This document shows, piece by piece, positions 1-24,035 of a stretch of 25,498 nucleotides of DNA. How positions within the stretch are numbered: the first letter of the stretch is position 1; every line of letters begins with the position of its first letter. Origin of the DNA: a virus. Where the stretch lies: positions 1 to 25,498 of the IMG/VR virus record IMGVR_UViG_3300017917_001364, one strand, 5' to 3'. Below the pieces are notes generated by a model. It saw only the letters and a list, made by a program, of their open reading frames with translations. It did not search any database and was not told the origin of the DNA. The translations under genes and the position numbers were made by a program.

Positions 1-56
1 AAGGTGGGGAGACACAACGTAAAAAACTAGTTACCGATTTATTTAACAAATTATGA
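1..56 (+). CDS. C-terminal end of an unknown protein (5' partial)
   Basis: Only the last 17 residues are visible, read from position 3 and ending in TGA at 54-56. The tail reads VTDLFNKL, almost the same as the ITNLFNKL tail of the next gene. The stop overlaps the next start as ATGA, so the two genes are translationally coupled. The repeated tail suggests related proteins or a shared C-terminal docking peptide. The function cannot be told from this fragment. Confidence 0.6.
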   Translation, partial: GGETQRKKLVTDLFNKL

Positions 57-1654: not shown

Positions 1655-1660
1655 ATGCAA

Positions 1661-1668
1661 TTATTTAT
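1661..1668 (-). promoter_or_regulatory. T4-late-promoter-like octamer ATAAATAA
   Basis: On the minus strand the octamer ATAAATAA ends six bases before ATG 1654. It matches the core of the T4 late promoter (TATAAATA). The divergent gene at 1705 has a weaker version, ATAAATTA at 1691-1698, also six bases from its ATG. A 7-bp inverted repeat (ATGCAAT at 1655-1661, ATTGCAT at 1673-1679) brackets the octamer. Confidence 0.5.
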
Positions 1669-1704
1669 CTAGATTGCATTGATTTATCTTATAAATTATT
1701 CCAT

Positions 1705-2136
1705 ATGTATAGTAAAGTACTTATCTGCGGTTTACCTGGTAGTGGTAAAACAACATTTGCTAAATTTTTAATCGAAGAATATATAAAGAACAATATACCT
1801 TATTATTGGCTTAATGGTGATAAGGTAAGAGAAGACAGTAATGATTGGGACTTTTCAATGGATGGTAGACTAAGACAAACAGTAAGAATGTGTAATTTAG
1901 CTAATGGTATTAAAGATAAAGATGTAATTATTGATTATGTTTGTCCATTAGAAGAGTATAGATATATGTTATCTCCAACTTACACAGTATTTTTAGATAC
2001 TGGTACTAATACCAAACATGAAAACACTAAGAAGATATTTGAAATACCAGCATCACCTAATTTAGTTATTAGAGATAAGGATGCTATTGAGTTATCTGCA
2101 AAAGATTTATATGAGTATCTAACTAAGCTTCATTAA
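1705..2136 (+). CDS. APS-kinase-like P-loop kinase
   Basis: The 143-residue P-loop protein has a Walker A motif GLPGSGKTT at residues 9-17. This is followed by WLNGDKVRE, which matches the (D/N)GDxxR motif of adenylylsulfate (APS) kinases, and by FSMDGRLRQTVRMCNLA, which matches their FSxxxRxxNxxR-type helix. APS kinase transfers the ATP gamma-phosphate to the 3'-OH of APS to give PAPS. The protein is shorter than typical CysC (about 180-200 residues), and its C-terminal part is poorly conserved, so the substrate may be another nucleotide or a sugar. Together with the DUF3431 gene and the transferases downstream it may feed surface or DNA decoration. Its stop overlaps the convergent gene by 14 bases. 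Confidence 0.75.
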   Translation: MYSKVLICGLPGSGKTTFAKFLIEEYIKNNIPYYWLNGDKVREDSNDWDFSMDGRLRQTVRMCNLANGIKDKDVIIDYVCPLEEYRYMLSPTYTVFLDTGTNTKHENTKKIFEIPASPNLVIRDKDAIELSAKDLYEYLTKLH

Positions 2137-2761
2137 AGATATAGTGTATACTTCTTTCTAGATAGTGAATTTCTTCACTATTTTTACAATCAAATGTGGA
2201 TAAAAGTGCTTGATAATACTCTTTAGGGTGTTGTAAGATTTTATTTTTAGATACTACAAATATAATTCCATGGTACCAGATCATAGTTTCAGGATCTGGT
2301 CTTGGTTTCTTTATATAAGTATCCCAATATTCACCATAGGTAAGTTTAGCTGGTTTAAGTTCACCAGATTCAAACTCTTTCAACCATTTATTATGGTGAA
2401 TTAATCTATCCCAACCATGAAAAGGTAAGTGTATTGATCCACACCAATTACCTCTTCTCTCACAAACACCTAAGAATTCTTTATTTCTAAATTTATCTAC
2501 ATGAAACTCAGGATCATGAAAGTAAGGATCACTTTGACTAAACAGGACATAATCAGGTAAGTTATCATAAAAAGTGGTTATGTAATGCGGTATAGTGTAA
2601 GCATCTTTACCAATATTAGGTACTCTAATGTAGTTATTATCCAATATTAATGTTTCAGTTAAGCTATCTTTTTTATCATAGAAAATAGTATTAGAAGGTA
2701 GAGGATTAATTGGTGTAACTTCATTATAGAGTGTTACAACTAACTGTAAATTATCTTTCAA
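2123..2761 (-). CDS. DUF3431 family glycosyltransferase-like protein
   Basis: The 212-residue product matches the pattern of the DUF3431 family: an opening beta strand LQLVVTLYNE, then VPNIGKDAYTIPHYI (family form close to NVGREAHTYLxHI), then LPDYVLFSQSDPYFH (family form LxDYTIFLQGDPxDH), and a C-terminal ERSIHYIF. The family is uncharacterised but looks like a GT-A glycosyltransferase fold. The start is a TTG at 2761; no ATG lies nearby, and the family's first strand begins right after it, so this start is well placed. No signal peptide is seen. It probably belongs functionally with the glycan genes at 6036-11171. Confidence 0.8.
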   Translation of the reverse strand: MKDNLQLVVTLYNEVTPINPLPSNTIFYDKKDSLTETLILDNNYIRVPNIGKDAYTIPHYITTFYDNLPDYVLFSQSDPYFHDPEFHVDKFRNKEFLGVCERRGNWCGSIHLPFHGWDRLIHHNKWLKEFESGELKPAKLTYGEYWDTYIKKPRPDPETMIWYHGIIFVVSKNKILQHPKEYYQALLSTFDCKNSEEIHYLERSIHYIFNEA

Positions 2762-2815
2762 TCTACAATATTTTAGGTAGTGATTTTTAGATAATCAAGC
2801 ATAAAATATAGAAAT

Positions 2816-3388
2816 ATGATTCAAGAACTGCAATCTAAATTTAAGTCTATGACAGATTTTAATCCTGAATATGTAGAAAAATTTATTTGTAATCTTGGAT
2901 TAAGTGATAAGATAGACTTTTTACCAGATAGTTACAAACAATACTACAAGAGTGAAGGTTATAGATTGTATTGTTCACCATATGTCTTAGCACACACATT
3001 AATCAGACTTAGACCATTTTTAAATGTATCTACATTTAATTTCTATATTGGATGTGAGCCTATAGAGTATGACATTTACTTTAATCAACTATTTGAAGCA
3101 TTTTTTGCTAATAGTAGTATAAAGGAAGTGGAATGTGTTATCACCGATGAAATTTCACAATGTGATATTGCATATGTAAGTGAAAATGTACCTATGGAGA
3201 AACTTAGGAGCATTATTGAATCCACTAAGAATGTAATTGTTATTGAAAACTTGTATGACTTTAATAAGCTAGAACAATTGCAACAATTTAATAATGACAA
3301 TGTAATTAGTTATTATATACAAGAGGGTGCTGATAATCCTAAGAGTTCAGTTGCAATATTGTATAAGAGTTTAGCAATGTTTGAATAA
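2816..3388 (+). CDS. Hypothetical 190-residue protein
   Basis: Not recognised. The 190-residue product alternates helices and strands and has the feel of a Rossmann-like fold (strand STFNFYIGCEP, then CDIAYVSENVP, then NVIVIENLYDF), which could be a degenerate methyltransferase or sugar-nucleotide protein. I see no complete SAM-binding or catalytic motif. The ATG at 2816 is preceded by ATAAAATA at 2801-2808 and no Shine-Dalgarno. It is divergent from the DUF3431 gene with a gap of about 54 bases. Confidence 0.65.
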   Translation: MIQELQSKFKSMTDFNPEYVEKFICNLGLSDKIDFLPDSYKQYYKSEGYRLYCSPYVLAHTLIRLRPFLNVSTFNFYIGCEPIEYDIYFNQLFEAFFANSSIKEVECVITDEISQCDIAYVSENVPMEKLRSIIESTKNVIVIENLYDFNKLEQLQQFNNDNVISYYIQEGADNPKSSVAILYKSLAMFE

Positions 3389-3396
3389 GTAATCAT

Positions 3397-3681
3397 ATGA
3401 AGAAGTTTTACGGGTTGCTTAAAGAGTATGAAGGTGGTAGTTATGATCAAACCAATGATGGACCTAATGCTAACAAAGCAGGTTTACCAGGAAGTGGTGG
3501 TATAACCCCTGCTCCATATCGTAGTTTTCAAGCTGATGAAGAAGAACTCAACACACCAAATGGTAAGATGAAAGGTGATTTAAAGAGGTTGCTTGATGGT
3601 TTAAGAGACAAAGATCAATTGGATAAAAATGGTTTAACCAGACTTTGCACTTCATTGGAACAAATAATTGCAAAAATATAG
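3397..3681 (+). CDS. Hypothetical 94-residue protein with possible head-targeting leader
   Basis: This small protein has a Gly/Pro/Asn-rich disordered middle (residues 13-48) and a charged helical C-terminus (about 55-94, LKRLLDGLRDKDQLDK). The N-terminus MKKFYGLLKEYEGG contains LKE, which fits the L-x-E consensus for gp21-type prohead protease cleavage, and the leader resembles T4 internal-protein leaders (MKTYQEFIAE in IPIII). A packaged internal protein is therefore possible but unproven. It lies eight bases after the previous stop. A degenerate ATAAGTAA (3385-3392) sits four bases before ATG. Confidence 0.6.
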   Translation: MKKFYGLLKEYEGGSYDQTNDGPNANKAGLPGSGGITPAPYRSFQADEEELNTPNGKMKGDLKRLLDGLRDKDQLDKNGLTRLCTSLEQIIAKI

Positions 3682-3710
3682 TTGAAGGAAACAGTGTGTA
3701 GGAGTATAAT
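3682..3710 (+). promoter_or_regulatory. Sigma70-like promoter for the outer-membrane barrel gene
   Basis: TTGAAG (3682-3687), a 17-base spacer and a perfect TATAAT (3705-3710) form a host-type promoter. Transcription would begin near 3717, only about three bases before ATG 3720. The message would then be nearly leaderless, and the GGAG at 3701-3704 would not be part of it. Confidence 0.5.
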
Positions 3711-3719
3711 TAATAATGT

Positions 3720-4427
3720 ATGAAGAATACATTAATTAAAGTAATCGCAATCGGTGCAGCCTTGGTTTCTTTTAACTTGGCTGCTCAAAACAGTTCCAGC
3801 ATTGGTGCTAGTGTTGGGTACAATAACAACTATGCAGTCAATGGTGTAATTCGAGCTAAGTCAGCTCCGTTTTTCAACTTTGACGCTACCAAGTCATTGA
3901 AGTATGCTGATGTATACATTGGAGGTATTTTGCTTCCTAACAACAACCTCGACCAGTCTCACTGGACCGCTGGTGTTGGTAACAAGTTCAATCTCTTTGG
4001 AGATTTTGCTCTTCGTACTGACGCTACCGTTACTCGTCATCAATCCGGTATTGCTGGCATTCCTAATTCCACTGAAGTTGGTTTGAAGGCTGAAGTACAG
4101 AACCCTTATGCTACTCCTTATGTGAGAGGTTCTTATGATTATAACCTCGACCAGACTGGTGTTGCTGCTGGTATCTATCGTGAGCAAGCTCTTCCATACG
4201 GTTTCAAGTTTACACCGCTTGCTGAGTACGGTCGTTTTACCGATTATGAGTATTTGACCTTTAAGGCTTCTCTTACTCGTCCGTTCACTACTCCTGTTGG
4301 TGTTGTTACCCCGTTTGCTGAGGCTGCTTGGTTGGATAACGACTTCAGCATTAGCAAGTACAACTTCGCCTTGAAGGAAGCTTCTGGTACTATGCTCTAT
4401 GTGGCTGGTATTTCTTTGAAGTTCTAA
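3720..4427 (+). CDS. Outer-membrane beta-barrel protein, phage-encoded moron
   Basis: The 235-residue protein has a classical signal peptide: MKNT, then hydrophobic LIKVIAIGAALVSFNLA, with likely cleavage after AA before QNSS (around residues 21-22). The mature part is a series of amphipathic strands ending in an aromatic residue (AGISLKF), the outer-membrane insertion signal. No globular domain is seen. The barrel could change receptor access, exclude other phages or alter uptake; none of this is shown by sequence. G+C is visibly higher than in neighbours (27 of 60 bases in 3961-4020 against 20 of 60 in 1801-1860), with codon choice like that of the capsid gene. This fits strong expression or recent transfer. 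It has its own promoter and terminator. Confidence 0.85.
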   Translation: MKNTLIKVIAIGAALVSFNLAAQNSSSIGASVGYNNNYAVNGVIRAKSAPFFNFDATKSLKYADVYIGGILLPNNNLDQSHWTAGVGNKFNLFGDFALRTDATVTRHQSGIAGIPNSTEVGLKAEVQNPYATPYVRGSYDYNLDQTGVAAGIYREQALPYGFKFTPLAEYGRFTDYEYLTFKASLTRPFTTPVGVVTPFAEAAWLDNDFSISKYNFALKEASGTMLYVAGISLKF

Positions 4428-4445
4428 TAGGTTAGATAATTATAG

Positions 4446-4479
4446 CCCTCAATGTGCGTAATGCCATTGGGGGTTTTTT
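4446..4479 (+). terminator. Rho-independent terminator after the barrel gene
   Basis: A nine-pair stem (4446-4454 with 4465-4473, one G-T pair) is followed by six T residues (4474-4479). Two further pairs can form inside the loop. It lies 18 bases after the barrel stop and isolates that gene from the hydrolase downstream. Confidence 0.85.
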
Positions 4480-4490
4480 CATCTTTATAC

Positions 4491-4498
4491 ATAAATAT
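4491..4498 (+). promoter_or_regulatory. T4-late-promoter-like octamer ATAAATAT
   Basis: The octamer ends four bases before GTG 4503 and directly follows the terminator. Its placement matches the other octamers in this window and decides the start of the hydrolase gene. Confidence 0.5.
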
Positions 4499-4502
4499 AT
4501 AT

Positions 4503-5339
4503 GTGAATTTTCAAGAGTATTACTACACCCATCAGCAAACTGACGAAGGATTAAAGAGCTCGTTAGCTGCTGCAGGTTTAGCAGCTATGTTACCATTTGC
4601 TGGTTTAGCTGGTGATAAAGCACCAGTAAAACAAAAACCAGCCATTACCGTACCAGTATTAAAACCATTAAGTGTTCAAGAAGCTTTATTACCTGATAAT
4701 ATTATAGCTGCAACATTGACTGGAGAAGCAAGAGGTGAGGGTGAGAAGGGTATGCAAGCAATTTTAAATGTCTTGCAAAATAGATTGAAATATGCTAAAG
4801 AAACAAATTTTGATAAGATAAAAGATATAGCATTACAAAAACATCAGTTTGAAATATGGACAAGTAGAAAAACTGATGAACAAAAAGCTGAATTTGTTAA
4901 TAAAATGCGTAAGACACCACAATGGGCTACTGCTATAAAATTAGTTGAAAGAGCAAGACAGGGTAAATTAGAAGACTTAACCAATAATGCTACATTTTAT
5001 CATACAAATAAAATGGAACCTAATTGGGCTGATTCATTTACTAAGACAAATACAATTGGTAATCATATATTTTATAACCATGGTAAAGAGTTTATAACAC
5101 CATTTTTACCTAAAAAGGTAATAAAGAAGAAACCATTAAAAGAAGAAATTGATACTCCTAATAATGGTTTCTTGCAAAGACCGGTTGGTGGTCCTAATTT
5201 AGTAAACTTCAGTCCTAACTTTAAAGATGCACCAGGTGGTATATATTTAGGTAGCGATCAAATACACACTCCAACAATACAGGCTGCTAGATTAAGAATG
5301 TTATATAATAAGAAAAAGAAAAAACGTTCTAAACGTTAA
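4503..5339 (+). CDS. SleB-like cell-wall hydrolase
   Basis: The open frame extends upstream to 4452, but that start lies inside the preceding terminator. I choose GTG 4503, four bases after an ATAAATAT octamer, which gives 278 residues. Residues 20-37 are hydrophobic and Ala/Gly-rich (a possible signal-anchor or membrane-active segment). The SleB/Hydrolase_2 domain covers about 62-190: NIIAATLTGEARGEG with the expected catalytic Glu near 75, then GMQAILNVLQNRL, then NATFYHT and IGNHIFYNHG. Such enzymes cut the glycan strands of peptidoglycan. The C-terminus is Pro-rich and then very basic (KKKKKRSKR). It could be an endolysin or a virion-associated lysin; I see no holin beside it. The stop overlaps the convergent gene by four bases. 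Confidence 0.8.
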   Translation: MNFQEYYYTHQQTDEGLKSSLAAAGLAAMLPFAGLAGDKAPVKQKPAITVPVLKPLSVQEALLPDNIIAATLTGEARGEGEKGMQAILNVLQNRLKYAKETNFDKIKDIALQKHQFEIWTSRKTDEQKAEFVNKMRKTPQWATAIKLVERARQGKLEDLTNNATFYHTNKMEPNWADSFTKTNTIGNHIFYNHGKEFITPFLPKKVIKKKPLKEEIDTPNNGFLQRPVGGPNLVNFSPNFKDAPGGIYLGSDQIHTPTIQAARLRMLYNKKKKKRSKR

Positions 5340-5959
5340 CTCATTCTTTGATAAGCATACACTGTATAGCCAGCAATATTGTAAGAACCTAAAAAGTTCC
5401 AAATACCAGCAATAAAGCTACCTGAAATTAAATTAAAGTCACCAGGGTTACCAGTGTAGTTAAAAGAAGCGGTACTTGTAGTTGGATCTACATATGGTAT
5501 AATAGTTGTATAGATAGTATTTACAGGATACATTACTTCTAACAAACTATTAACTTCTAAAGTAATTGCACCTGTATTGGTGAAAGATTTAACAGATGGG
5601 TTACCATCTATATTCAAATAATCACCAACCTCCACAGAAGTTACTGTACCATTAGATTCACCAGCAACTATAGCCCAATTAACAGGTGAGGTGGCTGGTA
5701 AAGCAGTAAGTGAATATGTTTTACTATTATAGAAAGCTATATCATTAACCTCAGCATTAAGAGTGATTAAAGTAGCTTCACTTGGAACCTCACCCCAAAT
5801 TTTGTTAGATGTTACAATACCACCTGGTGTAGTGCCATTACCAATATAAAGTCTTGTGGTATCGGTGGTATAGCCGAGTTCAGCTTGTGATAAAGTGACA
5901 CTTAATCTATCAGTATTTGTACCTTTTCTAATTAAAATTTTTGCTATTTCTGATGGCAT
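5336..5959 (-). CDS. Tail-fibre or appendage-like structural protein
   Basis: The N-terminus (IAKILIRKGTNTDRLSVTLS, then QAELGYTTDTTRLYIGNGTT) matches a repeat common at the start of phage tail-fibre and tropism proteins (form RRGTxxxxxxxxLxxGELGxxTDTxRxxIGDGT). The middle is beta-rich (SNGTVTSVEVGDYLNIDG). The C-terminus (ISGSFIAGIWNFLGSYN) resembles fibre tails ending in GTWxxLG. At 207 residues it is much shorter than a full fibre, so it may be a whisker, adaptor or receptor-binding tip. ATG 5959 has no Shine-Dalgarno. The 76 bases between it and the divergent gene at 6036 must hold both promoters; only AT-rich sequence is visible there. Confidence 0.7.
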   Translation of the reverse strand: MPSEIAKILIRKGTNTDRLSVTLSQAELGYTTDTTRLYIGNGTTPGGIVTSNKIWGEVPSEATLITLNAEVNDIAFYNSKTYSLTALPATSPVNWAIVAGESNGTVTSVEVGDYLNIDGNPSVKSFTNTGAITLEVNSLLEVMYPVNTIYTTIIPYVDPTTSTASFNYTGNPGDFNLISGSFIAGIWNFLGSYNIAGYTVYAYQRMS

Positions 5960-6035
5960 AAAAATATTTAATTTACGCTTATTAGATTAACACATGTGAG
6001 CATTGATTATTTACTGGTTCTAGCTAAATTGTGTT

Positions 6036-7316
6036 GTGAGTAAAATATTCATTCAAATTGCTGCTTATAGAGATCCTGATCTTCAGAATACTATTAAGAG
6101 CTGTCTTGAAAATGCTGAACATCCTGAGAATTTAAGATTTGGAATTTGTTGGCAACACCATCATCTCGATGATTGGGATAAACTTGATGAATATAGAAAC
6201 AATCCGCAATTCAATATTATCGATGTAGATTCACGTAAAGGTAAGGGTACATGTTGGGCACGACATATGATTCAACATCTTTATTGTGAAGAAGAGTATA
6301 CACTTGCAATAGACTCACATATGCGCTTTGTAGAACATTGGGATACTAAGTGCATTAACATGATTAAGCTTTTACAGAGTAAAGGACATGCTAAACCTTT
6401 ACTTACCGGATACGTAACAAGTTTTAATCCAGTTAATGATCCGCATGGTCGTGAAACTGACCCATGGAAGATGATTTTCGATAGATTTATTCCTGAAGGA
6501 GCTATCTTCTTTTTACCAACTTCCATGAGGGGTGATGAACTTTTAGAACCAATTCCATCTAGATTCTACAGTGCTCACTTCTGTTTTACTCTTGGAGAAA
6601 TGTGTCATGAAGTACCTCACGATCCAAATTATTACTTTCATGGTGAAGAAATCAGTATTGCTGTAAGAGCTTTCACACATGGTTACGATTTATTCCATCC
6701 AAACATGATTATTTGCTATCATGAATACACCCGTAAGGGTAGACCTCACCATTGGGATGATTGTAATAAGAAGGATGGTAGGCGTTATGACTGGTGGGAG
6801 GTAAATGAGATGTGTCATAAACGTAATAGAATCTTATTTGGCATGGATGGTGAAGATCCTAACCAGATTAACTTTGGTGAATTTGGTTTTGGTAATGTGC
6901 GTACTGTGGAGGATTATCAAAAATATGCCGGTATTAACTTTAAGTTAAGATCTGTAACACAAGAAGTTATTGATAATGTATTACCTACATATGATTATCA
7001 CAATAAACCTGATCAACAGTGGTTAAGAAACTGGTGTGTAGACTTTTATGTACCAGCAGATCGTATACCAAGTGATGTGGAATACACATTTTGGTACAGT
7101 TGTGTGCAGGATGCTGACGGTAATGAGCTTGCAAGACTTGATATACACGGTAAACAACTGCATGAAATCATTAGTAGAGAACAAGATAAGTCAGCCTATA
7201 GGTGGCCTATTGGTGTATATAGCAACGTACCACCAGCTAAGTATGTGGTATGGCCAATGGATAAGCAAGGTAACTGGCTTGAAAGAGTTGAAATTGATAT
7301 TCCTAAACCGATTTAA
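6036..7316 (+). CDS. GlcNAc-transferase-like glycosyltransferase (PF11397 type), copy 1
   Basis: The 426-residue protein follows the pattern of the GlcNAc family PF11397, related to the Skp1 hydroxyproline N-acetylglucosaminyltransferases: IFIQIAAYRDPDLQNTIKSC at the start, ARHMIQHLYCEEEYTLAIDS then HMRF around residues 75-100 (the DSH stands where a metal-binding DxD is expected), HDPNYYFHGEEISIAVRAF near 205, and YHEYTRKGRP near 228. Such enzymes transfer a sugar from a UDP-sugar. After the catalytic part comes an extra beta domain (about 320-426, beginning RNWCVDFYV) that is also present in copy 2. The start is GTG. The gene ends inside a terminator hairpin. The acceptor could be a virion protein, host glycan or modified base. 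Confidence 0.85.
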   Translation: MSKIFIQIAAYRDPDLQNTIKSCLENAEHPENLRFGICWQHHHLDDWDKLDEYRNNPQFNIIDVDSRKGKGTCWARHMIQHLYCEEEYTLAIDSHMRFVEHWDTKCINMIKLLQSKGHAKPLLTGYVTSFNPVNDPHGRETDPWKMIFDRFIPEGAIFFLPTSMRGDELLEPIPSRFYSAHFCFTLGEMCHEVPHDPNYYFHGEEISIAVRAFTHGYDLFHPNMIICYHEYTRKGRPHHWDDCNKKDGRRYDWWEVNEMCHKRNRILFGMDGEDPNQINFGEFGFGNVRTVEDYQKYAGINFKLRSVTQEVIDNVLPTYDYHNKPDQQWLRNWCVDFYVPADRIPSDVEYTFWYSCVQDADGNELARLDIHGKQLHEIISREQDKSAYRWPIGVYSNVPPAKYVVWPMDKQGNWLERVEIDIPKPI

Positions 7317-7351: not shown

Positions 7352-8668
7352 ATGAGATCAGATGATACAATTTTTATTCAAATTGCATCCTATAGAGACC
7401 CACAGTTACTTACCACTTTACATGATTGTTTACAAAATGCTAACAATCCGCAAAATTTAAGATTTGCAATTGCAAGACAATTTCGTGAGGAAGATGGTTT
7501 CGACAATGTGGATGAATTTAGGAACGATCCAAGATTTAAAATAATTGATATTAACTGGCGTGATAGTAAGGGTGTTTGTTGGGCTCGTAATTTAGTACAA
7601 CAAGAATACGATAACGAAACATATACTTTCCAAATTGACTCGCATATGCGATTTGCTAAAGGTTGGGATACTATAGCAATCGATATGATAAAGATGTTGC
7701 AAAATAAAGGTTATAGAAAACCATTATTAACTGCATATACTTCTTCATTTAATCCTGATAATGACCCTGCTGAACGACAATTAGATCCATGGTTTATGGA
7801 ATTTGATAGATTTATCCCTGAGGGTGCTATCTTTTTCTTACCTGCTACTATACCAGATTACAAAGTTAGAGTAGAGCCAATGAGGGCTAGATTCTATAGT
7901 GCTCATTGTACATTTACTCTTGGTCAATTTTGCACTGAAGTTCAGCATGACCCTAATTATTACTTCCATGGTGAAGAGATTAGCATTGCTGCAAGAGCTT
8001 ATACTTGGGGTTATGATTTATTTCACCCACATAAGATTATAGCTTGGCATGAATATACCCGTAAAGGTAGACCTAAGCAATGGGATGATTCTGCAAATTT
8101 AGTTAATGTTAATGGTGAAGTCATGACAGCAAATGATGTTTGTCATTTAAGAAACCGTAAATTATTCGGTATGGATAATGTACCACAAGATGTAGATTTT
8201 GGTATTTACGGTTTCGGTAATGAAAGAACATTAGAGGATTATGAATTATATGCTGGTGTAAACTTTAAAAATAGAACAGTTCACCCTTATACATGGCCTC
8301 AAAAGTTAGAACCACCTACACCTAACTGGAAAAATAACCCTGATATTTACCCCACAAAGGAATCTTATGAAAAAGATATGGGTAGAAACTGGTGTGTTGA
8401 TATTTGGATAGATGGTACTAAAGTTAAACTACCAGATAACAGTCTCTATGACTTTTGGTATGTAGGTGCTCATGATGAAAATGGTGATGAAGTATATAGA
8501 GAAGACTTACAACCATATAGAATTGAAGAAGAATTATCTAAATCTAATTGTAGTTTCTTCTTAAAGTTTTGTTCTGATAAAAGACCAGTTAGTTGGACTG
8601 TATGGCCTCACAGATCTGATACTGGTTGGTGTGATAAGATTGGGCCAGTTACAGTAAATTTACCATAA
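7352..8668 (+). CDS. GlcNAc-transferase-like glycosyltransferase (PF11397 type), copy 2
   Basis: The 438-residue protein is a tandem paralogue of the preceding gene. In the first aligned block (from IFIQIA to the Gln that ends it) I count 23 of 37 identical residues, and all signature segments recur: QIDSHMRF, RFYSAHCTFTLG, HDPNYYFHGEEISIAARAY and WHEYTRKGRP. The C-terminal accessory beta domain (RNWCVDIWI onward) is present but more divergent, with an insert before it (about residues 318-345). Retention of both copies suggests two acceptors or two successive sugars. Its stop is followed one base later by the next ATG, so it is co-transcribed with the 833-residue fusion. Confidence 0.85.
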   Translation: MRSDDTIFIQIASYRDPQLLTTLHDCLQNANNPQNLRFAIARQFREEDGFDNVDEFRNDPRFKIIDINWRDSKGVCWARNLVQQEYDNETYTFQIDSHMRFAKGWDTIAIDMIKMLQNKGYRKPLLTAYTSSFNPDNDPAERQLDPWFMEFDRFIPEGAIFFLPATIPDYKVRVEPMRARFYSAHCTFTLGQFCTEVQHDPNYYFHGEEISIAARAYTWGYDLFHPHKIIAWHEYTRKGRPKQWDDSANLVNVNGEVMTANDVCHLRNRKLFGMDNVPQDVDFGIYGFGNERTLEDYELYAGVNFKNRTVHPYTWPQKLEPPTPNWKNNPDIYPTKESYEKDMGRNWCVDIWIDGTKVKLPDNSLYDFWYVGAHDENGDEVYREDLQPYRIEEELSKSNCSFFLKFCSDKRPVSWTVWPHRSDTGWCDKIGPVTVNLP

Positions 8669-8669
8669 T

Positions 8670-11171
8670 ATGAAAGATACTTTTAACACTTTACAATTGC
8701 ATAAAATATTTGATATTTCGATGAGAAATACAAATAGACATAAAGGTGCTAATACATTTGCACTTGTTATTGGTGCTAATAATGGTACCGATGATGACAC
8801 CTTAGGTGGTTATGTTTTATCATTTAATTGGAGAGCTCTCCTTATTGAACCATTACCTGAACATTTAATTGAGTTAAAAGATAATTTCAAAAAACCAATC
8901 AAGCAAGGTAAGGTAATTGTAGCTGAAGAGTGTGTAAGTGACATTGAAGAGATTGTTCAATTTGCTTATATACCTTATAAAACTATTGTTGATAAGAATT
9001 TACACCCTGCTATTAGAGGTATGAGCTGTGTTTTACCTCCTACAAATGGGTTTGCAACCGATCCAATAACATCTAAACTGTTTGAAGAGCATAAAGTAGT
9101 TATTGAATTCATAACTAAACCAATCAATAAAATTTGTGAAGAGTTTTTCGTTGATGAAATTGATTATGTTCAATGTGATGTAGAAGGTTATGACTACAGA
9201 GTATTATCAAAATTTGATTTCAAGAAGTATAGACCGAAAATTTTTAAGTTTGAAACTCGCAATTATGATAGCGGTTCATTAGAACCAGTTCGTGAGTTAT
9301 TTGAATCCAATAATTATAGTGTTTACTCCATGGATGGTTTAGATGCTTTAGCTATTGCAAATGAACATTTAGATTATTTACGTAAGAATAAACGTTGGGA
9401 AGAAGTATTAAGATTAGAAGGTTGTGAAGTAGATGATGTATTATCTAACTTTCAAAATGATATTGATACTGAAGAATATATCTCATTTGAAAAACCAGCA
9501 GTAGAAAAGTCTAATGTTACTGTAGTTACTTGTTTATGGGATATAAGAAGAGATACTTGTGAGGGTACATTTAAGAGATCATTTGATACATATTTAGAAA
9601 AGTTTGATGAGCTTCTTAAAATAGAGAACCCAATGATTATCTTCACTGAGAAAAAGGTAGAAGAGTTTATCTTACAAAGAAGATCAATATCTAACACAGT
9701 TATCGTAATTAAAGAAGTAGACGAACTCAAGACATGGTTTAGTTTCTACGAACAAGTACAAACTATTAGAAACAACCCTGAATGGAGAAATATTGCTAGT
9801 TGGCTAAATGATAGCACACAAGCTAACTTAGAAATGTATAATCCTGTGGTAATGTCTAAGTTATTTTTACTTAATGATGCAGCTATTTACAATAGTTTTA
9901 AAACTGATTACTATTTGTGGTTGGATGCTGGTATAACAAATACTATACATCCTGGATACTTTACTCATGATCAATGTTTAGTTAAGTTAGAAAAGTATCT
10001 TAACAAATTTTTATTTGTGGCATTCCCATATGAGAACTATGAAATACATGGATTTCCAGAATCGGAAATGAGAATGTATGCTAATAGTGATAAGATTACG
10101 TATGTATGCCGTGGTGGTGTATTTGGTGGTCATAAGAGCAGTATAAGTAAAGTATGTGAATTGTATTACTCACTCTTATCTGATTCATTAAACAGAGGTT
10201 TGATGGGTACTGAAGAGAGTATTTTCACAATTATAGCTCATAAATACCCTGATATTGTTGATAGGGTAATGATTAACTATGATGGTTTAATTGGTACATT
10301 CTTTGAGAACTTAAAGAACAATAATGTACAAGTTATTGGTACCAGACGTGTTAGAAGTTTAAATGATGTTAAAACAAATTTATATGTCATTACATTTAAC
10401 TCACCAAGACAATTTAGAATGCTTTGTGAGAAATATGCTAAAGAAGATGGATTCTTTACACATGCTAACAAGTATGTATTAGACAATTCATTAGATTTAA
10501 CTACTACTGATGAATATGTTAAGATTTGTAATGAATATAATTTCACTCACATAAAGAAAGATAACTTAGGTATTTGTGGTGGTAGACAATTTATAGCAGA
10601 ACACTTTGAAGAATCTAATGCTGATTATTGTATCTTCTTAGAAGATGATATGTTTATTAACAATACTAGCATTGGTACATGTGTTAATGGATTCCAAACA
10701 TACATACCTAACTTATATGAGAAGGTACATCGTATCTGCGAAGAACACGGTTATGACTTCTTGAAGTTTAGTTTCACTGAATTTTACGGAGATAACAAAA
10801 CTCAATGGGCATGGTACAATGTACCTCATGAGTACAGATTGCAGAATTTTCCTGAAAGACCTTATTTACCAGCTCAGGGTTTAGACCCATATGCTCCAAA
10901 AACTAAGTTTAACAATATACATACAATAGGTAACTTACCATATATTGATGGTGAGATATACTACTGTAACTGGCCTCAAATAGTGTCTAAAGAAGGTAAT
11001 AAGAAGATGTTTTTAACAGAAAAATGGGGTCATCCATTCGAACAAACATGGATGTCATACATATATCAACAAACAAAATTAGGTAATATTAAAGGTAGTT
11101 TGTTATTAGCTTCACCTATTACACATAACAGATTTGATCATTATGATGGTAACGCTCGTAAAGAGTCGTGA
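8670..11171 (+). CDS. Three-domain FkbM methyltransferase / HtrL-type / GT-A glycosyltransferase fusion
   Basis: The 833-residue protein has three parts. Residues about 25-240 are an FkbM-type SAM methyltransferase: FALVIGANNGTDDDT (SAM-binding loop), LLIEPLPEHL and VQCDVEGYDYRVL. FkbM enzymes often O-methylate sugars. Residues about 275-545 match the HtrL/WlaTC family: VTVVTCLWDIRRD, NPMIIFTEKK, VVMSKLFLLNDAAI and YYLWLDAGITN. Residues about 560-833 look like a GT-A glycosyltransferase: NLYVITFNSPRQF, then DNLGICGGRQF, then YCIFLEDDMFIN, with an EDD motif near 658 in the place of DxD. No signal peptide or membrane segment is seen. The enzyme could build and cap a methylated glycan. The frame is intact, so the fusion looks real. 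Confidence 0.85.
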   Translation: MKDTFNTLQLHKIFDISMRNTNRHKGANTFALVIGANNGTDDDTLGGYVLSFNWRALLIEPLPEHLIELKDNFKKPIKQGKVIVAEECVSDIEEIVQFAYIPYKTIVDKNLHPAIRGMSCVLPPTNGFATDPITSKLFEEHKVVIEFITKPINKICEEFFVDEIDYVQCDVEGYDYRVLSKFDFKKYRPKIFKFETRNYDSGSLEPVRELFESNNYSVYSMDGLDALAIANEHLDYLRKNKRWEEVLRLEGCEVDDVLSNFQNDIDTEEYISFEKPAVEKSNVTVVTCLWDIRRDTCEGTFKRSFDTYLEKFDELLKIENPMIIFTEKKVEEFILQRRSISNTVIVIKEVDELKTWFSFYEQVQTIRNNPEWRNIASWLNDSTQANLEMYNPVVMSKLFLLNDAAIYNSFKTDYYLWLDAGITNTIHPGYFTHDQCLVKLEKYLNKFLFVAFPYENYEIHGFPESEMRMYANSDKITYVCRGGVFGGHKSSISKVCELYYSLLSDSLNRGLMGTEESIFTIIAHKYPDIVDRVMINYDGLIGTFFENLKNNNVQVIGTRRVRSLNDVKTNLYVITFNSPRQFRMLCEKYAKEDGFFTHANKYVLDNSLDLTTTDEYVKICNEYNFTHIKKDNLGICGGRQFIAEHFEESNADYCIFLEDDMFINNTSIGTCVNGFQTYIPNLYEKVHRICEEHGYDFLKFSFTEFYGDNKTQWAWYNVPHEYRLQNFPERPYLPAQGLDPYAPKTKFNNIHTIGNLPYIDGEIYYCNWPQIVSKEGNKKMFLTEKWGHPFEQTWMSYIYQQTKLGNIKGSLLLASPITHNRFDHYDGNARKES

Positions 11172-11184: not shown

Positions 11185-14100
11185 ATGGAAGTATTAACGC
11201 TCAGTAATAGTACCTTTACAGGTTTAAGTTCTAACTACCCATACGATCCAACTATGGTTGTCAACACTGACAACCATGTTTCTTATGAAGGTCTGAACAT
11301 ATCTATTATTGATGGATTGTGTGCAGCAGTCGATACTTCTACTAATTATTACTCAGCATTTGTATTATCTGATAAAGCTAATGTTAATAACTTTATAGAT
11401 ATTACTACTGTTACTCAAACACCACCATATTCAATAACTACCTATTTAGGGTTATATACAGCTGGTAACATTTTACCATTGAGTAAAGTCTTAGCTACTA
11501 GTGTTACACCAGGTGTAAGTGTAGTTGCATATCCAATATTTTTTACAGACTATCAAAATAATCTTTCTTTACAAAATTATACCATTAACTTTATTGATAA
11601 TGATACATGCACTATAACACAAACAATTAATACTGAGACTTATTACTTATCATATTACCAACCAAACACCGGTGTTGGTGCATTTTTAATGGTTGATAGA
11701 TATCAAAATGATGAGGTAAATGTATTCAACTACATTTATGATACTAACTTTTCTCAAATCGTTTTAACCAAAAAAGTAAATGGTTTGCAAAAATATGTAA
11801 GCTATGGTAGTGCAGATAATGTATTATCTATGGTAGATTTCGTTACTGGTAGTGATGTATTTGTTAATAGTAGTGCATTTAAAATTCGTGACTATAATAA
11901 CGTTAATTTAGATATACCAACTGACTGGTATTCATATAAGAAAGAAATTGATATAGATGGTTTAGATGTCAATAACGAAAGATGTGTAGATAATGTACCA
12001 CTTAACTACTTGTTAAATTTTACTGTAGAGAAGTTAAGTGCTAATAGTTTACCTGTAAACATTATACCTCTTAAGAATGATAAAGATAACGAAAATAGTT
12101 TAAGTAGAGGTAGTATTATCAATAATGAATACGATGGTGTAATCCAACGTACATACACTTCACTCAACACTGGTACTACACAAATAAAAGGTTCACCAGA
12201 TTTTAACACCACATTTAACAGTTACACTACCCAGCTCTTAATACCTAAAGATAACACAACATTCTTTTATTTCCCATATGAGCCATTCCCAGTTATTAAG
12301 CTCAATATTAATGATTCAAGTTTAATTAACTCTGGTGCAATAGCTGGTGATAAACCTATTAATTCAGATAAAGTATTCAAACAAAAGATAAAACAACCTT
12401 TCACTAATCAGTACAATAATAATGATTCTGAACAAACAGGTGTATATCTTTGTAGTTGGTTAAGAGGTGGTGTTGGTTTATCAGCTTTACCTATCTGGGT
12501 GGATAGATATTACAATCCTACACTTATTAATTCTATAGATGCATTAACATATACTGATACATTTGTAACACAATTTGATTTATTAGCTGTTAATAATCCT
12601 AATAATGTTACATATCCAGTGTATGATATTAAGAGTAATCTTACATTTGAGGCTGGTTATCAATATGCAATTCAACACTTAGGTGATAAGAACATTATTG
12701 AATTAATTGATACATTATCCGGTAGTTTAGTTCAACATACCTTAACTAATAAGTATGACTATCTTAACCAATATTTTGAATATATTGGTAATGAAATAAC
12801 ACTTGGAAATACATATTACAGCACTCTTATAGATGACACACAAGTAGTAGAAATAGCTAAATATAACAACTTCACTATTACTTTTGATCTTAGTGTTCCA
12901 AAATGGACTGAAAGCATAGGTTATCAAATATTTGGTAACTACAATACATATGGTTTAGGTGTTTTCAATGATCAACAAATTACACCATTTGTAATTACAT
13001 ATGATGGTAGTGATATAAGTGTATATAATTCAGAGTTATCTTTATTAGATACTGTGAATGTAGATTCTAATATTATACATTTAAGTAAGTTAGATCCTGT
13101 AGGAAACATTCTTACAATTACTGAAAATAACTATGTTACTAGAGTTGACTATAATAGTGTTATTGTTGATAAAAAGTTTATACCAAATTTAACTGAATAT
13201 ATTTCTTTCTATTCAACCTTAGAGTATACATATTGTTATTCACCATTTTTATCTGCTATAAGAATTAATAATGCTTCATTAGATTATGAATCATTATCAA
13301 TGAATGCAATATATGTAACGGTGCCTAATTTAGCTGCAACAACATATACAATAATTGTTTTGGATGAGGTAATGTATGTTGTACCCGGTACAAATGTTAA
13401 ATCATTAAATGGTAAAATATTTTTTACCATGCAGAATGGTACAACACAGGTATTTGTTGTATATGATATATTAAAAAATGCTTCTTCAGTGTTGTTTATT
13501 ACAGATGTGGTAAATGATTATATCATTAATGAAGATAATACAGTATATCTGTTATATAACAATAACATGTTTTTATTGACAGATGCTGAATATAGAATTC
13601 AGACATCTAATAATTTTCCTATTGTTTTATTCACTGATCAACCAACTTTATCAGGTGTAACATTTGCAGGTATGGATTTTATCCAAAATAAAGGTGGTAA
13701 TAATTTAAGTGAAACTGGTTTATGCTTTGTTGGTTTTGATACTGCAAATAAAACCAAGTATCTCATAAGAACTAACAAAATTGAAAATAGTAGTTTAATA
13801 ACTATTATTAATTCAGTATCAATAAACTACACAAATCAAACCGGTTATAGAAATGTAACAAACTACAATTTTAATCACAATAATTTAACATCAACCGGTC
13901 AATTAGAATTTAGATTAGGTTTACCAAATGTGTATGATAAGACACAAATCAAACTTATTAGATTTGTGCAAGATGTAAGTTTATTTGAATCTGGTTATCA
14001 CAATTTTATCATTAGATTTGACTCTGTAAATGGTGTCTACACTATCTTTATAGATGGTATTAAAGTGTATCAAGAACTGGTACAAGGTGGTCAGTATTCA

Positions 14101-14523
14101 TTTAGTGGTATTATCAATAAAAAATTCCTTGTAGGTAATTGTATATATTACAACAATTATCCATTAGGATTCTACACTAAACAACCTTTATATTATTTCA
14201 CCAATAAAATCGATGTAAAGAACTTATATTGGTACAACCAAGCATTATCATATTATGATATGTTATTGTTTGTTAAACTTAACTATCCAATAAGTGATTT
14301 AAGATTTGAATTACCAACTGGTAAACGTAACTTTGTTGAAACTATACAACAATTCTTTAAATTTAAGGTACCTGGGTTTAAATCTAATTATTTTAATGTA
14401 CATATAGTTAACTTACCTGTAACTGGTACACTTAAAACACAGTTAGATAGTACATTTATAGAAGTAATTAATCGCAACAAACCAGGCTATACACAATTAA
14501 ATACTATTACGTATCATGAATAA
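11185..14523 (+). CDS. Large beta-rich virion appendage protein with probable LamG-like C-terminal region
   Basis: The 1112-residue protein is rich in Asn, Thr, Ser, Tyr and Ile, with long beta-strand runs and almost no Cys, as in phage fibre and baseplate appendage proteins. No signal peptide. Around residues 880-1030 a segment (QLEFRLGLPNVYD, then GYHNFIIRFDSVNGVYTIFI, DGIKV) has the strand pattern of a LamG/concanavalin-like jelly roll, a fold that often binds glycans. The last 80 residues form a separate tail. The stop overlaps the next start by eight bases (ATG 14516), which couples translation to the 963-residue partner. It is probably a receptor-binding or adaptor protein; I cannot assign a T4 gene. 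Confidence 0.7.
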   Translation: MEVLTLSNSTFTGLSSNYPYDPTMVVNTDNHVSYEGLNISIIDGLCAAVDTSTNYYSAFVLSDKANVNNFIDITTVTQTPPYSITTYLGLYTAGNILPLSKVLATSVTPGVSVVAYPIFFTDYQNNLSLQNYTINFIDNDTCTITQTINTETYYLSYYQPNTGVGAFLMVDRYQNDEVNVFNYIYDTNFSQIVLTKKVNGLQKYVSYGSADNVLSMVDFVTGSDVFVNSSAFKIRDYNNVNLDIPTDWYSYKKEIDIDGLDVNNERCVDNVPLNYLLNFTVEKLSANSLPVNIIPLKNDKDNENSLSRGSIINNEYDGVIQRTYTSLNTGTTQIKGSPDFNTTFNSYTTQLLIPKDNTTFFYFPYEPFPVIKLNINDSSLINSGAIAGDKPINSDKVFKQKIKQPFTNQYNNNDSEQTGVYLCSWLRGGVGLSALPIWVDRYYNPTLINSIDALTYTDTFVTQFDLLAVNNPNNVTYPVYDIKSNLTFEAGYQYAIQHLGDKNIIELIDTLSGSLVQHTLTNKYDYLNQYFEYIGNEITLGNTYYSTLIDDTQVVEIAKYNNFTITFDLSVPKWTESIGYQIFGNYNTYGLGVFNDQQITPFVITYDGSDISVYNSELSLLDTVNVDSNIIHLSKLDPVGNILTITENNYVTRVDYNSVIVDKKFIPNLTEYISFYSTLEYTYCYSPFLSAIRINNASLDYESLSMNAIYVTVPNLAATTYTIIVLDEVMYVVPGTNVKSLNGKIFFTMQNGTTQVFVVYDILKNASSVLFITDVVNDYIINEDNTVYLLYNNNMFLLTDAEYRIQTSNNFPIVLFTDQPTLSGVTFAGMDFIQNKGGNNLSETGLCFVGFDTANKTKYLIRTNKIENSSLITIINSVSINYTNQTGYRNVTNYNFNHNNLTSTGQLEFRLGLPNVYDKTQIKLIRFVQDVSLFESGYHNFIIRFDSVNGVYTIFIDGIKVYQELVQGGQYSFSGIINKKFLVGNCIYYNNYPLGFYTKQPLYYFTNKIDVKNLYWYNQALSYYDMLLFVKLNYPISDLRFELPTGKRNFVETIQQFFKFKVPGFKSNYFNVHIVNLPVTGTLKTQLDSTFIEVINRNKPGYTQLNTITYHE

Positions 14524-17407
14524 CATTGCAACAGAGTTAGGTAATTATATATTCGTACCGAATAGAACTGGTAGTTTGACATTAACTAACCAGCTTGCAT
14601 TACCTCTTACACTCGAACAATGTTTAATTAATAGTAATAACAACTATCAAGCTACAGCTGATTCATTTAATTCAGCTCTATCATGTTTAAACATTAATTA
14701 CATGTACTTGTATAGTAAATTGTTTTTAGTTGAGAATAATTTTCCCACTAATACACCGAGTTATATAGGTAATGCTGAAAACACTACACCTACTGTAATT
14801 AATATTACTGATATAAATCAAACTAGTTTTACCACTTTAACAGCAGCACTTACTTCAGTAAATTTCACATTTAACAATTATCTCGATAATTATAGTGTAT
14901 CTATAAATTTAAGCACTATAGCAACTCCTCAAGAGCTTGCCTATACATATCTCAACACTATAACAGCACTCGACAGTGGTAAATTATTTCCATTAGGTGA
15001 AGTTACCGCAGCAAGCGGTACATATGTAGTTGGATTAACTGGTATACCAGCTATTGAGGTTAATGATAGTTTTACTACAAATTTAAGTACTATTTTCTTA
15101 ACACCAACTACTTATACTAATAATGGTGGTGTAATGCAATTACAGGAAACCAATAATTTTAATGAATTGGTGCAATTCTCTTTTTCATCTATTGCTTCAG
15201 CTGGTATGGATGATTTAGTAGATATACAAGTTACTAAGAATGGTTACACCGGTAAGAATGTTATATTTTGTGCTGCACAGAAACAAATCTATATAATCAC
15301 TGAATCTAATGGTGTTGTAGAATTAGTTTATAGTAACACTTTACTTGGATATAATAGAGATATAGATTTCCAAGATATCACTTCAATTGTATTATATGGT
15401 GATTTTCTTTATATTGGTGATAAACATTACAATTCTATCTATAAAGTAGATGTAAGTGGGTTTATCCGTAATAATCCAATTAACAGCACAAGATTTATAG
15501 TTGATAGAATTATTGGTGGTACCGGTTCAGATAATACTCAATTCAATGCACCGGAACCACAATTTGTATATAACAATCAACTCTATGTATTTGATAGAAA
15601 CAATAGTTATATCAAACTGTATGATCTTAACTTAAACTTTTTAAGAAGCATTAACTATTCTAGTACTCTTAGAAGTACACCACCTATAGCAACAGTAAAA
15701 CCATTCAATTTAGGTTTATATCAAGGTGTGTATAATATCTATTATCTTTCAAGCTATGTAACAGTTAACAGCTTTGAAACATTTAGAACTAATGAAATAT
15801 TGGTGTTGGATATTAACAATTTCATAACATTGTATGATATTAAATTAAGTTTCAACAATGTTGATGAGACACTTGTTGATTTTAAACAATCATCTATAGA
15901 TGTACAAACAGTATATGTAGCAACTAATAAAAATTTATATAAGTTATTTTTATCTAACTTTTCACAGATAGGTAATTTCACACAAGGTATCTACAACATT
16001 AAACGTTTAGGAGATGTAGATAACAATGGTGAAGATGCATTATTTGTCTATCAAACCTACGGTAAAGGGTTCTTTACTAAATTTTTAGAACAAAATAGTT
16101 ATATTAGTTTATTAACAGAGAGCAACTTTAAAATTTATTCTGTATCTGAATTATTCACTAATAGTAATGAGAATCAGACATTTATTGTTTACAATAAAAC
16201 ATTTAAAAAGTTATTCTATAATTTCTTTAAATTGTTAACTAACATAAAATGTAGACCGGTGTATGTTGTACAAACCAACACACCATTTAATTCTAGAACA
16301 TTTACTGATTTAGAGTATATAAGTAATGCTGAATTTGAAGAATTAAACACTTTAGATGATAAGAATTTCTATGTAGGTGAAAATGAAATATTTTCAAATT
16401 CAGTTCTTAATAGAATATTAACTAACTTTTACAGATTATTACAACGTGGTTTAGCAATTGCTAGTAATAAAGTAACATTTGAATATACACCTGTTAACTT
16501 ACAGAGAATTGTTAATTCTACTGTTACACCTGTATCTACAAGTACAGTTATAGCTTATCCATATATAATGACTGAACAGTATAATCAAAATGATTATACA
16601 ACATTCAACAGTATAATTTTAACTGAAGATGGTAATGGTATTACTACTGAAAGCTATCAAAAACCAACTACTAAACCACAAAATCAATTAATTGAAACAG
16701 TAAATGGTACAGGTAATGTAACATCAATTAAAACTGATTATGTTAACACAGCTTATTCATTTATTGATAATAATACTGCTGTTAAATCGCCAACTTTAAA
16801 TTTACCATTAACCTCTACAAATACAGCTCCAGCAGTGGTTACATATTTAGAAGCAGTAAGAACACCAACAACAGGTAATTTTACCAAAAAGATTATTGAT
16901 TATTACAAAATAACTACTGTAGCTGACTATATAGATTATCTTAAATTTGTTGCAGTTAATAATATAAGACCTTTACCACCTCCAAGATCTATAGCTGCAG
17001 AATACAATTCAGCTGATCCTAAAACTTACGGTAATTATGTTTATATATCTATTTTTCAATTAGGTTTTGCACCCGCATCACCTGACAGTAATTACCCGGG
17101 GGCAAAGGCGTTAATTATCGAAGATTTAAAGCGTTCTGGTGAGTACGAAACATATAAACTTGACACTACTAAATACACATTAGTGGAGGACTTATATGCC
17201 ATTCAAGTTGCGAAAGACAACAGAGGAAATACGGAAACCGTATATTTAAAAACACAAAAAGCAGTTCTTATAGATACCACTACACCTAAAGTTACAGTAT
17301 CAACTGCAGTAACAATTGATCCTAACTTATTAGTTAAACCTACTGGTGGTTCGGGTTCTGGATTAGATGATACAACCGAATTAGGTTTTAGAAGACTTAA
17401 CCCTTAA
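14516..17407 (+). CDS. Large virion protein with NHL/beta-propeller-like region
   Basis: The 963-residue protein is coupled to the preceding gene by an overlap. Residues about 225-560 contain repeated blade-like segments: DLVDIQVTKNGYTGKNVIFC, then LYGDFLYIGDKHYNSIYKVD, then RIIGGTGSDNTQFNAPEP followed by QLYVFDRNNSYIKLYDLNLN. The GGTGSxxxQFxxPxxxxxxxxxLYVxDxxN pattern is the NHL repeat, so a beta-propeller is likely. The C-terminus (about 855-945) is more charged and includes GGxG-rich linker GGSGSGLDDTTELG. No enzyme motif is seen. It is a probable baseplate or fibre component. Base composition rises briefly near 17095-17120 (a CCCGGGGG run), unlike the rest of the gene. Confidence 0.7.
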   Translation: MNNIATELGNYIFVPNRTGSLTLTNQLALPLTLEQCLINSNNNYQATADSFNSALSCLNINYMYLYSKLFLVENNFPTNTPSYIGNAENTTPTVINITDINQTSFTTLTAALTSVNFTFNNYLDNYSVSINLSTIATPQELAYTYLNTITALDSGKLFPLGEVTAASGTYVVGLTGIPAIEVNDSFTTNLSTIFLTPTTYTNNGGVMQLQETNNFNELVQFSFSSIASAGMDDLVDIQVTKNGYTGKNVIFCAAQKQIYIITESNGVVELVYSNTLLGYNRDIDFQDITSIVLYGDFLYIGDKHYNSIYKVDVSGFIRNNPINSTRFIVDRIIGGTGSDNTQFNAPEPQFVYNNQLYVFDRNNSYIKLYDLNLNFLRSINYSSTLRSTPPIATVKPFNLGLYQGVYNIYYLSSYVTVNSFETFRTNEILVLDINNFITLYDIKLSFNNVDETLVDFKQSSIDVQTVYVATNKNLYKLFLSNFSQIGNFTQGIYNIKRLGDVDNNGEDALFVYQTYGKGFFTKFLEQNSYISLLTESNFKIYSVSELFTNSNENQTFIVYNKTFKKLFYNFFKLLTNIKCRPVYVVQTNTPFNSRTFTDLEYISNAEFEELNTLDDKNFYVGENEIFSNSVLNRILTNFYRLLQRGLAIASNKVTFEYTPVNLQRIVNSTVTPVSTSTVIAYPYIMTEQYNQNDYTTFNSIILTEDGNGITTESYQKPTTKPQNQLIETVNGTGNVTSIKTDYVNTAYSFIDNNTAVKSPTLNLPLTSTNTAPAVVTYLEAVRTPTTGNFTKKIIDYYKITTVADYIDYLKFVAVNNIRPLPPPRSIAAEYNSADPKTYGNYVYISIFQLGFAPASPDSNYPGAKALIIEDLKRSGEYETYKLDTTKYTLVEDLYAIQVAKDNRGNTETVYLKTQKAVLIDTTTPKVTVSTAVTIDPNLLVKPTGGSGSGLDDTTELGFRRLNP

Positions 17408-17420: not shown

Positions 17421-18164
17421 ATGCCTGATTTAACACCACAACCAATAAGTACGTTTCCTGAAATAACTAACCTAAATGGTTTTAACAATGACAGCTTATT
17501 GACATTGTTAAATGCTAATGCATCTACACCTGCAACAAAGAACGCTAATTTAAAGTTTAAAAACTTATATACATTAGTTAAAACAAATTTAAATTTAACA
17601 GATGCGGATATTAATACCGGTATTAATCCTGCAAATATTAATACTAATCAACTTGTTAATATTTCATCTATTACTGTTAATCAATATGGTAGAGTGGTGC
17701 AAATAGCAGGTACTAATGCATCTACTGCACCAACTGCTACAGGTGTTACATCAGGATTTTTACCAAGTTCTATTGTTGTACCACTTAATGCACCAGCCAA
17801 TACACCAGTATACGGTACACCATCTACATTCACCACTGGCTATGCTGGTAACATATTAGTAACTGTATATTTTAATTTGGTGACTATTATACCATTAGCA
17901 GCTCAACCACCTTTCACCACTGCACCTAATGTATTTGTGAATAACAATATTAATTCACCTACACAAATAACACCATTCTTTCAAACAGCAAGTTATGGTA
18001 GAAATATAGGTCAAAACAGAGAATATATAATTAGCGGTGTTGCAGTAGCATTATTACCTTGCCAACCTAATACAACAAATTGGGTTATAGGTGTAACATA
18101 TCCATTTTTGAATCCTTCTTATACATTTAACTATGCTGCTGTGTTTCAAAACAACTCACAGTAA
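17421..18164 (+). CDS. Probable fibre or whisker-like virion protein
   Basis: The 247-residue protein is rich in Asn, Thr, Pro and Ala. The first 55 residues (LTPQPISTFPEITNLNG, then DSLLTLLNANASTPATKNAN and KFKNLYTLVK) match the sort of linker that opens many T4-like fibre and whisker proteins, where an E/D-hinge precedes a 'xxNLxFxNL' strand. The rest is beta-rich with no recognised enzyme domain. It lies between the large appendage proteins and the neck gene, the place occupied by wac (fibritin) in T4, but I see no long coiled coil, so it is not an obvious fibritin. Confidence 0.6.
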   Translation: MPDLTPQPISTFPEITNLNGFNNDSLLTLLNANASTPATKNANLKFKNLYTLVKTNLNLTDADINTGINPANINTNQLVNISSITVNQYGRVVQIAGTNASTAPTATGVTSGFLPSSIVVPLNAPANTPVYGTPSTFTTGYAGNILVTVYFNLVTIIPLAAQPPFTTAPNVFVNNNINSPTQITPFFQTASYGRNIGQNREYIISGVAVALLPCQPNTTNWVIGVTYPFLNPSYTFNYAAVFQNNSQ

Positions 18165-24029: not shown

Positions 24030-24035
24030 ATGCAA
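24024..24035. repeat. Palindrome TTGCATATGCAA over the queF start
   Basis: A perfect 12-bp palindrome contains the queF start codon. The minus-strand gene at 1654 shares the same TTGCATATG start context, without the second half. It could be an operator or simply a favoured start context. Confidence 0.4.

Follow-up and report, generated by a model that had tools for sequence, protein, structure and literature searches.

Mucin-type O-glycosylation is usually regarded as a eukaryotic process. Its closest described enzymes include the family GT27 polypeptide N-acetylgalactosamine (GalNAc) transferases (GalNAc-Ts), which carry a DxH motif, and family GT60, which includes the polypeptide α-N-acetylglucosamine (GlcNAc) transferases of mucin-type and Skp1 pathways; Skp1 Gnt1 and the Trypanosoma cruzi polypeptide GlcNAc-transferase are both placed there (PMC6939170). 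In the Skp1 pathway of Toxoplasma, the GT60 step is followed by a tandem glycosyltransferase (GT) protein, PgtA (PMC6939170). Here we analyze an FkbM–HtrL–GT fusion of 833 aa, encoded at positions 8670–11171 (+ strand) of a 25.5-kb virus record (IMGVR_UViG_3300017917_001364; "the window" denotes this whole stretch of 25,498 nt), directly downstream of two GalNAc-T-like genes. In the best explanation, to which we assign a probability of roughly 0.7, the fusion helps build and methyl-cap glycans on virion proteins as part of a mucin-type O-glycosylation locus carried by the phage.

The modeled upstream GT of the window resembles GT27 and GT60 enzymes (Skp1 Gnt1 and the T. cruzi mucin initiator) in its predicted GalNAc-T fold (Z about 20–23), DxH motif, and PF11397 membership, and relatives of the locus place mucin-resembling candidate substrates beside the PF11397 GT. 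It differs in being of a kind encoded by phages and bacteria, and neither a lectin domain nor a signal anchor was seen. By analogy, the succession of a GT60 enzyme and PgtA in Toxoplasma is a close functional parallel to the phage locus: Both would combine GT60-like initiation with a two-GT tandem protein in the cytosol (PMC6939170). The phage tandem differs in its HtrL and GT2-like families, its fused methyltransferase, and its probable target, residues of Pro, Thr, and Ser (PTS) as opposed to the hydroxyproline of the PgtA pathway. Two tandem GT-A domains also occur in LH3/PLOD3, COLGALT1, and Mimivirus R699, which rank among the top Foldseek matches of the fusion, although identity is ~10%, domain packing deviates by a root-mean-square distance of 16–18 Å, and the fusion is without a collagen hydroxylase. 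Escherichia coli HtrL/YibB and Campylobacter WlaTC-type proteins share the HtrL domain, but here a second GT and a methyltransferase are fused to it, and the fusion misses the YibB equivalog cutoff by far (TIGR02192; 73.1 bits, with 264.9 needed); judged by sequence, its HtrL part shares a domain family with YibB but is not the E. coli protein. For mycobacteriophage virion glycosylation, we know of no link to mucin-like adhesins. That system is alike in that virion proteins are modified by phage-encoded GTs and differs in its capsid and tail-tube targets (as cited in PMC12619734). A phage mucin-type system is not described in the published literature that we searched, mostly outside subscription journals.

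A Methyltransferase and Two Predicted GT-A Domains Share One Frame

A sequence-only reading of the gene had proposed that three sugar-related domains stand in one intact frame and could add, extend, and methylate a sugar. The open reading frame (ORF) is indeed intact and open from its ATG start, and Pfam identifies two of the domains. The first is an FkbM methyltransferase (PF05050; residues 34–217, positions 8769–9320, + strand; E = 2.8e-11; 44.3 bits against a gathering cutoff of 22.7), which retains the S-adenosylmethionine-binding motifs GANNG, EPLP, and DVEG; TIGR01444 falls slightly below its cutoff (E = 3.2e-8), and BFVD viral structure matches of this region include FkbM proteins. The second is an HtrL/YibB (WlaTC-type) domain (PF09612; residues 281–531, positions 9510–10262, + strand; E = 1.2e-15; 58.3 bits against 24.1). 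In the third region, Pfam gives only a subthreshold GT2 match (PF00535; residues 613–677; E = 0.032; 14.6 bits against 23.3), and a PDB sequence search returned no confident relative for any fusion domain or for the upstream GT.

The fusion was placed by structure as well as sequence, with an AlphaFold2 model built from 62 homologues and compared by Foldseek and VIA-align. The model is confident within domains (mean predicted local distance difference test score [pLDDT] 89.4) and contains a single disordered linker (residues 258–279, positions 9441–9506, + strand; pLDDT < 50) that joins the methyltransferase to the GT pair; the packing of the domains is uncertain because the predicted template modeling score is 0.47. 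In its best Foldseek matches (LH3, LARGE1, chondroitin polymerase, and COLGALT1), GT-A domains likewise stand in tandem. By VIA-align, HtrL residues 269–548 match blood-group GTA (Z 13.3; 4.2 Å over 207 residues). The C-terminal domain (residues 563–831, positions 10356–11162, + strand) matches B4GALNT1 across residues 563–821 (Z 15.7; 3.4 Å over 198 residues) and scores Z 13–16 against B4GALNT1, POMGnT1, GnT-I, RmlT, and WrtF.

Conservation across the 62 sequences falls at the positions expected of such folds to bind metal or nucleotide. Near-invariant HtrL motifs are WxDxG (W417, D419, G421), EIHGF, and MGTEES, with D419 directly after strand 414–418; in the C-terminal domain, near-invariant EDDM (658–661) places E658-D659-D660 after strand 653–658. 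Both are predicted acidic metal/nucleotide-binding motifs. In the models, then, the HtrL and C-terminal domains are both GT-A glycosyltransferase folds, which makes the protein one methyltransferase plus two GTs and rules out HtrL as a non-GT accessory domain. A lack of transferase fold or catalytic residues in two of the three regions, which the sequence-only reading had named as decisive against it, was not found, because both GT regions are transferase-folded, D419 and E658-D659-D660 are near-invariant, and the FkbM motifs are kept. That reading is largely supported: Two GT-A domains with an FkbM methyltransferase suit the proposed addition, extension, and methylation of a sugar. For the first sugar, the PF11397/GalNAc-T-like enzymes encoded immediately before the fusion are the likelier source.

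Upstream Genes Encode Likely Initiating Glycosyltransferases

Two PF11397 "GlcNAc" GT genes precede the fusion on the + strand: copy 1 at 6036–7316 (GTG start; Pfam E = 1.2e-69; phrog_24687) and copy 2 at 7352–8668 (E = 1.5e-63), which ends 1 nt before it. They score 236 and 216 bits against a gathering cutoff of 21. The AlphaFold2 model of copy 2 (pLDDT 92.9) has 29 best structure matches that are all polypeptide GalNAc-transferases (Z 19.9–22.9; next class, 16.7), and its DxH motif, D96-S97-H98, is the DSH that is invariant in 44 sequences. These matches suggest that the window's PF11397 GTs are likely initiating polypeptide GTs. The pairing recurs: PF11397 GTs lie 0–8 kb upstream of the HtrL–GT core in nearly all sufficiently flanked loci.

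One carrier of this cassette is phage XacN1, whose ORF334 is the cassette's PF11397 enzyme. The XacN1 report describes at least two virion glycoproteins, and its authors suggest the involvement of phage GTs including ORF334 (PMC5852040).

Mucin-Like Adhesin Genes Adjoin the Cassette

Virion appendage proteins had been put forward as possible targets, and both the glycoproteins reported for XacN1 virions (PMC5852040) and the statistics of gene neighborhoods back this target class. We counted as mucin-like any ORF with at least 60% Thr + Ser + Pro over 100 aa. Of 94 cassette loci, 50 contain such an ORF, versus 5 of 92 head-gene control loci (Fisher P = 1e-13), and PTS residues number ~11 per 10 kb in five long contigs without the core (~754 kb) versus 140 near the cassette. 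In 23 of 50 loci, a mucin-like ORF directly precedes the first GT, against 4.2 loci expected; the observed count was reached in 0 of 20,000 permutations, and the minus-strand PTS ORFs of L099–L101 were left out of this same-strand count. Such an ORF sometimes also lies directly downstream of the core. At their ends the mucin-like ORFs carry lectin or adhesin modules (LamG, L-type lectin, MAM, PKD, or P-domain), and we take them for adhesins. The closest relative among the loci listed (L006; 68% identical) has an ORF with a Thr-rich repeat and LamG 135 bp before the first GT; in L018, an ORF of at least 2278 aa (1–6837; 43% Thr, TPTQTRT repeats, MAM at the end) stops 41 bp before it.

The window's own candidate substrates lie in the same tight operon, in which the two GT genes and the fusion are followed after 13 nt by the gene of a conserved structural/appendage protein of 1112 aa (11185–14523, +) and then by the overlapping gene of an appendage protein of 963 aa (14516–17407, +), and onward. 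The 1112-aa gene is kept beside the cassette in L005–L010, L012, L013, and L018, and the L006 homologue of the 963-aa protein contains (PTT)n and P/T-rich segments.

The association extends to bacteria. In five bacterial loci (L099, L100, L101, L113, and L114), the cassette accompanies PTS-rich proteins that have, near the N-terminus, an RR motif resembling a twin-arginine translocation (Tat) signal. One of them, L099, is the locus of Jiulongibacter sediminis, in which the three-domain gene (780 aa) stands beside a PTS-rich protein with such a start. This motif suggests Tat export of the bacterial proteins following glycosylation in the cytosol. In L100, a sulfotransferase-like gene adjoins the cassette. 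In the window, the position taken in relatives by the mucin-like ORF is held by a short tail-fiber-like ORF on the opposite strand (5336–5959, −), which resembles fiber N-termini in L013.

The Capping Module Varies Across the Family

Relatives are abundant: at least 548 among 600 IMG/VR pattern matches listed, and others in 18 bacterial contigs. A search for the same three-domain order found it full-length in independent contigs (41–68% identity), so the fusion is not a chance or assembly artifact; nor is the architecture unique to this phage, since further phages and certain bacteria have it too. Among isolated-phage records, none reaches 80% coverage of the fusion protein; XacN1, CM1, and RAS14 have the HtrL–GT pair only (41–44% identical). 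This pair, nearly always a single protein, is a common phage module. The GT and HtrL domains of L108 and L110 (Neisseriaceae bacterium TC5R-5) are separate proteins on different scaffolds.

What precedes the pair varies by locus: FkbM, a TylF-type methyltransferase, other class I methyltransferases, a PF11397 GT, or nothing. FkbM occupies this place in the window and 17 other ORFs, some of them near-duplicates, and sits between HtrL and GT in L107. Bacterial contigs L106, L113, and L114 have a PF11397 GT fused in front of the core, and the single ORF of L114 reads GlcNAc GT–HtrL–methyltransferase–GT, its methyltransferase being a Methyltransf_24 domain. On a quick tree of 72 rows, from which change counts are approximate, the methyltransferase-fusion label requires at least 19 changes and the FkbM label alone at least 6 (starred branches); the family was sampled from the 80 best loci, which biases it toward the query. 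This scatter excludes a fused methyltransferase that is ancestral and stable and, as far as sequences can tell, indicates that the capping module has been gained, lost, or swapped repeatedly. Between the PF11397 GTs and the core lie further variable genes—GT25, GT10, GT2, and PLOD-type GTs, RMNT/CmcI and FkbM methyltransferases, and carbamoyl- and sulfotransferases.

A Proposed Cytosolic Pathway and Its Alternatives

With the cassette beside GalNAc-T-like enzymes and often beside mucin-like adhesin genes, it is probable that such phages decorate the proteins of their own attachment apparatus with sugars. In the pathway we propose, the upstream PF11397 enzymes (GalNAc-T/GT60-like) would attach a first N-acetylhexosamine to Ser or Thr in adhesins or appendage proteins of the virion; the fusion, acting as a cytosolic three-step glycan-elaborating enzyme, would add subsequent sugars through its HtrL and C-terminal GT-A domains and cap the product by O-methylation through the tethered FkbM domain, a probable glycan O-methyl cap. 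What we infer is the order of steps, which sugars are added and by what linkage, and which protein this phage modifies. Across the family the cap would be swappable, provided by various fused methyltransferases or by separate methyl-, sulfo-, or carbamoyltransferase genes, and its swapping may diversify the glycan on the virion. In its broadest form, the proposal is that environmental tailed phages in their hundreds, along with some bacteria, carry a self-contained cytosolic locus for mucin-type O-glycosylation. A GalNAc-T-like initiator, a tandem GT protein, and interchangeable capping enzymes would coat the mucin-like stalks of the phages' own adhesins, and the fused methyltransferase would be an exchangeable cap through which the glycan on display varies. 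We give this form odds slightly better than even.

Several observations weigh against it. The 25-kb window fragment contains no mucin-like ORF (its large ORFs reach at most 0.35 T+S+P per 100 aa), and the flanks of XacN1 and RAS14 hold none. The enrichment controls are mostly head-gene flanks and whole contigs, as opposed to tail-fiber regions. In the accessible part of the XacN1 report, the glycoproteins are not matched to particular proteins (PMC5852040).

In the strongest competing explanation, the locus modifies host surface polysaccharide (lipopolysaccharide [LPS]/O-antigen) during infection, for example to block superinfection, and leaves virion proteins alone. HtrL/YibB proteins elsewhere occur in LPS and lipooligosaccharide loci, which counts for this explanation and against virion targets, as does the occurrence of cyanophage HtrL homologues within heptose/sugar-nucleotide clusters. 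GT clusters of jumbo phages have also been interpreted as modifying O-antigen or capsule (PMC7824862). Yet the operon lies amid late structural genes, the initiating enzyme is polypeptide-GalNAc-T-like, mucin-like adhesin ORFs are directly adjacent in relatives, and the named neighbor families include no flippase or polymerase; we therefore regard host-polysaccharide modification as improbable.

The fusion might instead merely tether separate pathways, its FkbM domain methylating a different acceptor. FkbM proteins have diverse acceptors, most relatives have the core without a methyltransferase, and the linker between FkbM and the GT pair is flexible. Against such loose tethering, sugar-type methyltransferases of several kinds (TylF, FkbM, and others) have repeatedly been joined to one core, and in L107 FkbM is lodged within it; this version appears somewhat less probable still. 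Glycosylation of hypermodified phage DNA bases, hinted at by a weak match of 50 residues of the C-terminal domain to phrog_842 (beta-glucosyl-HMC-alpha-glucosyltransferase; E = 0.0033), is very improbable, as no base-hydroxymethylation gene stands beside the cassette among the neighbors examined and both PF11397 fusion and adhesin adjacency favor a protein acceptor.

If mucin-type O-glycosylation is indeed widespread among phages, with likely acceptor genes close by, it would explain the function of many "hypothetical" phage GTs and low-complexity fibers, would provide a compact cytosolic O-glycosylation toolbox, and would suggest that phages vary the sugar coats of their adhesins. XacN1 virions and J. 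sediminis make the mucin-type reading testable.

Other Genes of the Window

The operon continues with the gene of a 247-aa protein (17421–18164, +), between the appendage genes and the head–tail adaptor; genes 3' of the operon match phage head–tail adaptor, head closure, and prohead protease families. Among them, 19211–19678 matches both a TnsA-like endonuclease fold (PF08722) and phrog_218, a head-closure family of phages. Amid the structural genes, 23085–24035 (−) encodes a QueF-like nitrile reductase of the 7-deazaguanine pathway (QueF_N and QueF domains). PADLOC found no defense match. Upstream of the cassette are a DUF3431 protein (2123–2761, −; E = 2.2e-8), a putative outer-membrane protein with a signal peptide and a β-barrel-like sequence, as judged by eye (3720–4427), and a SleB-type cell wall hydrolase (Hydrolase_2; 4452–5339).
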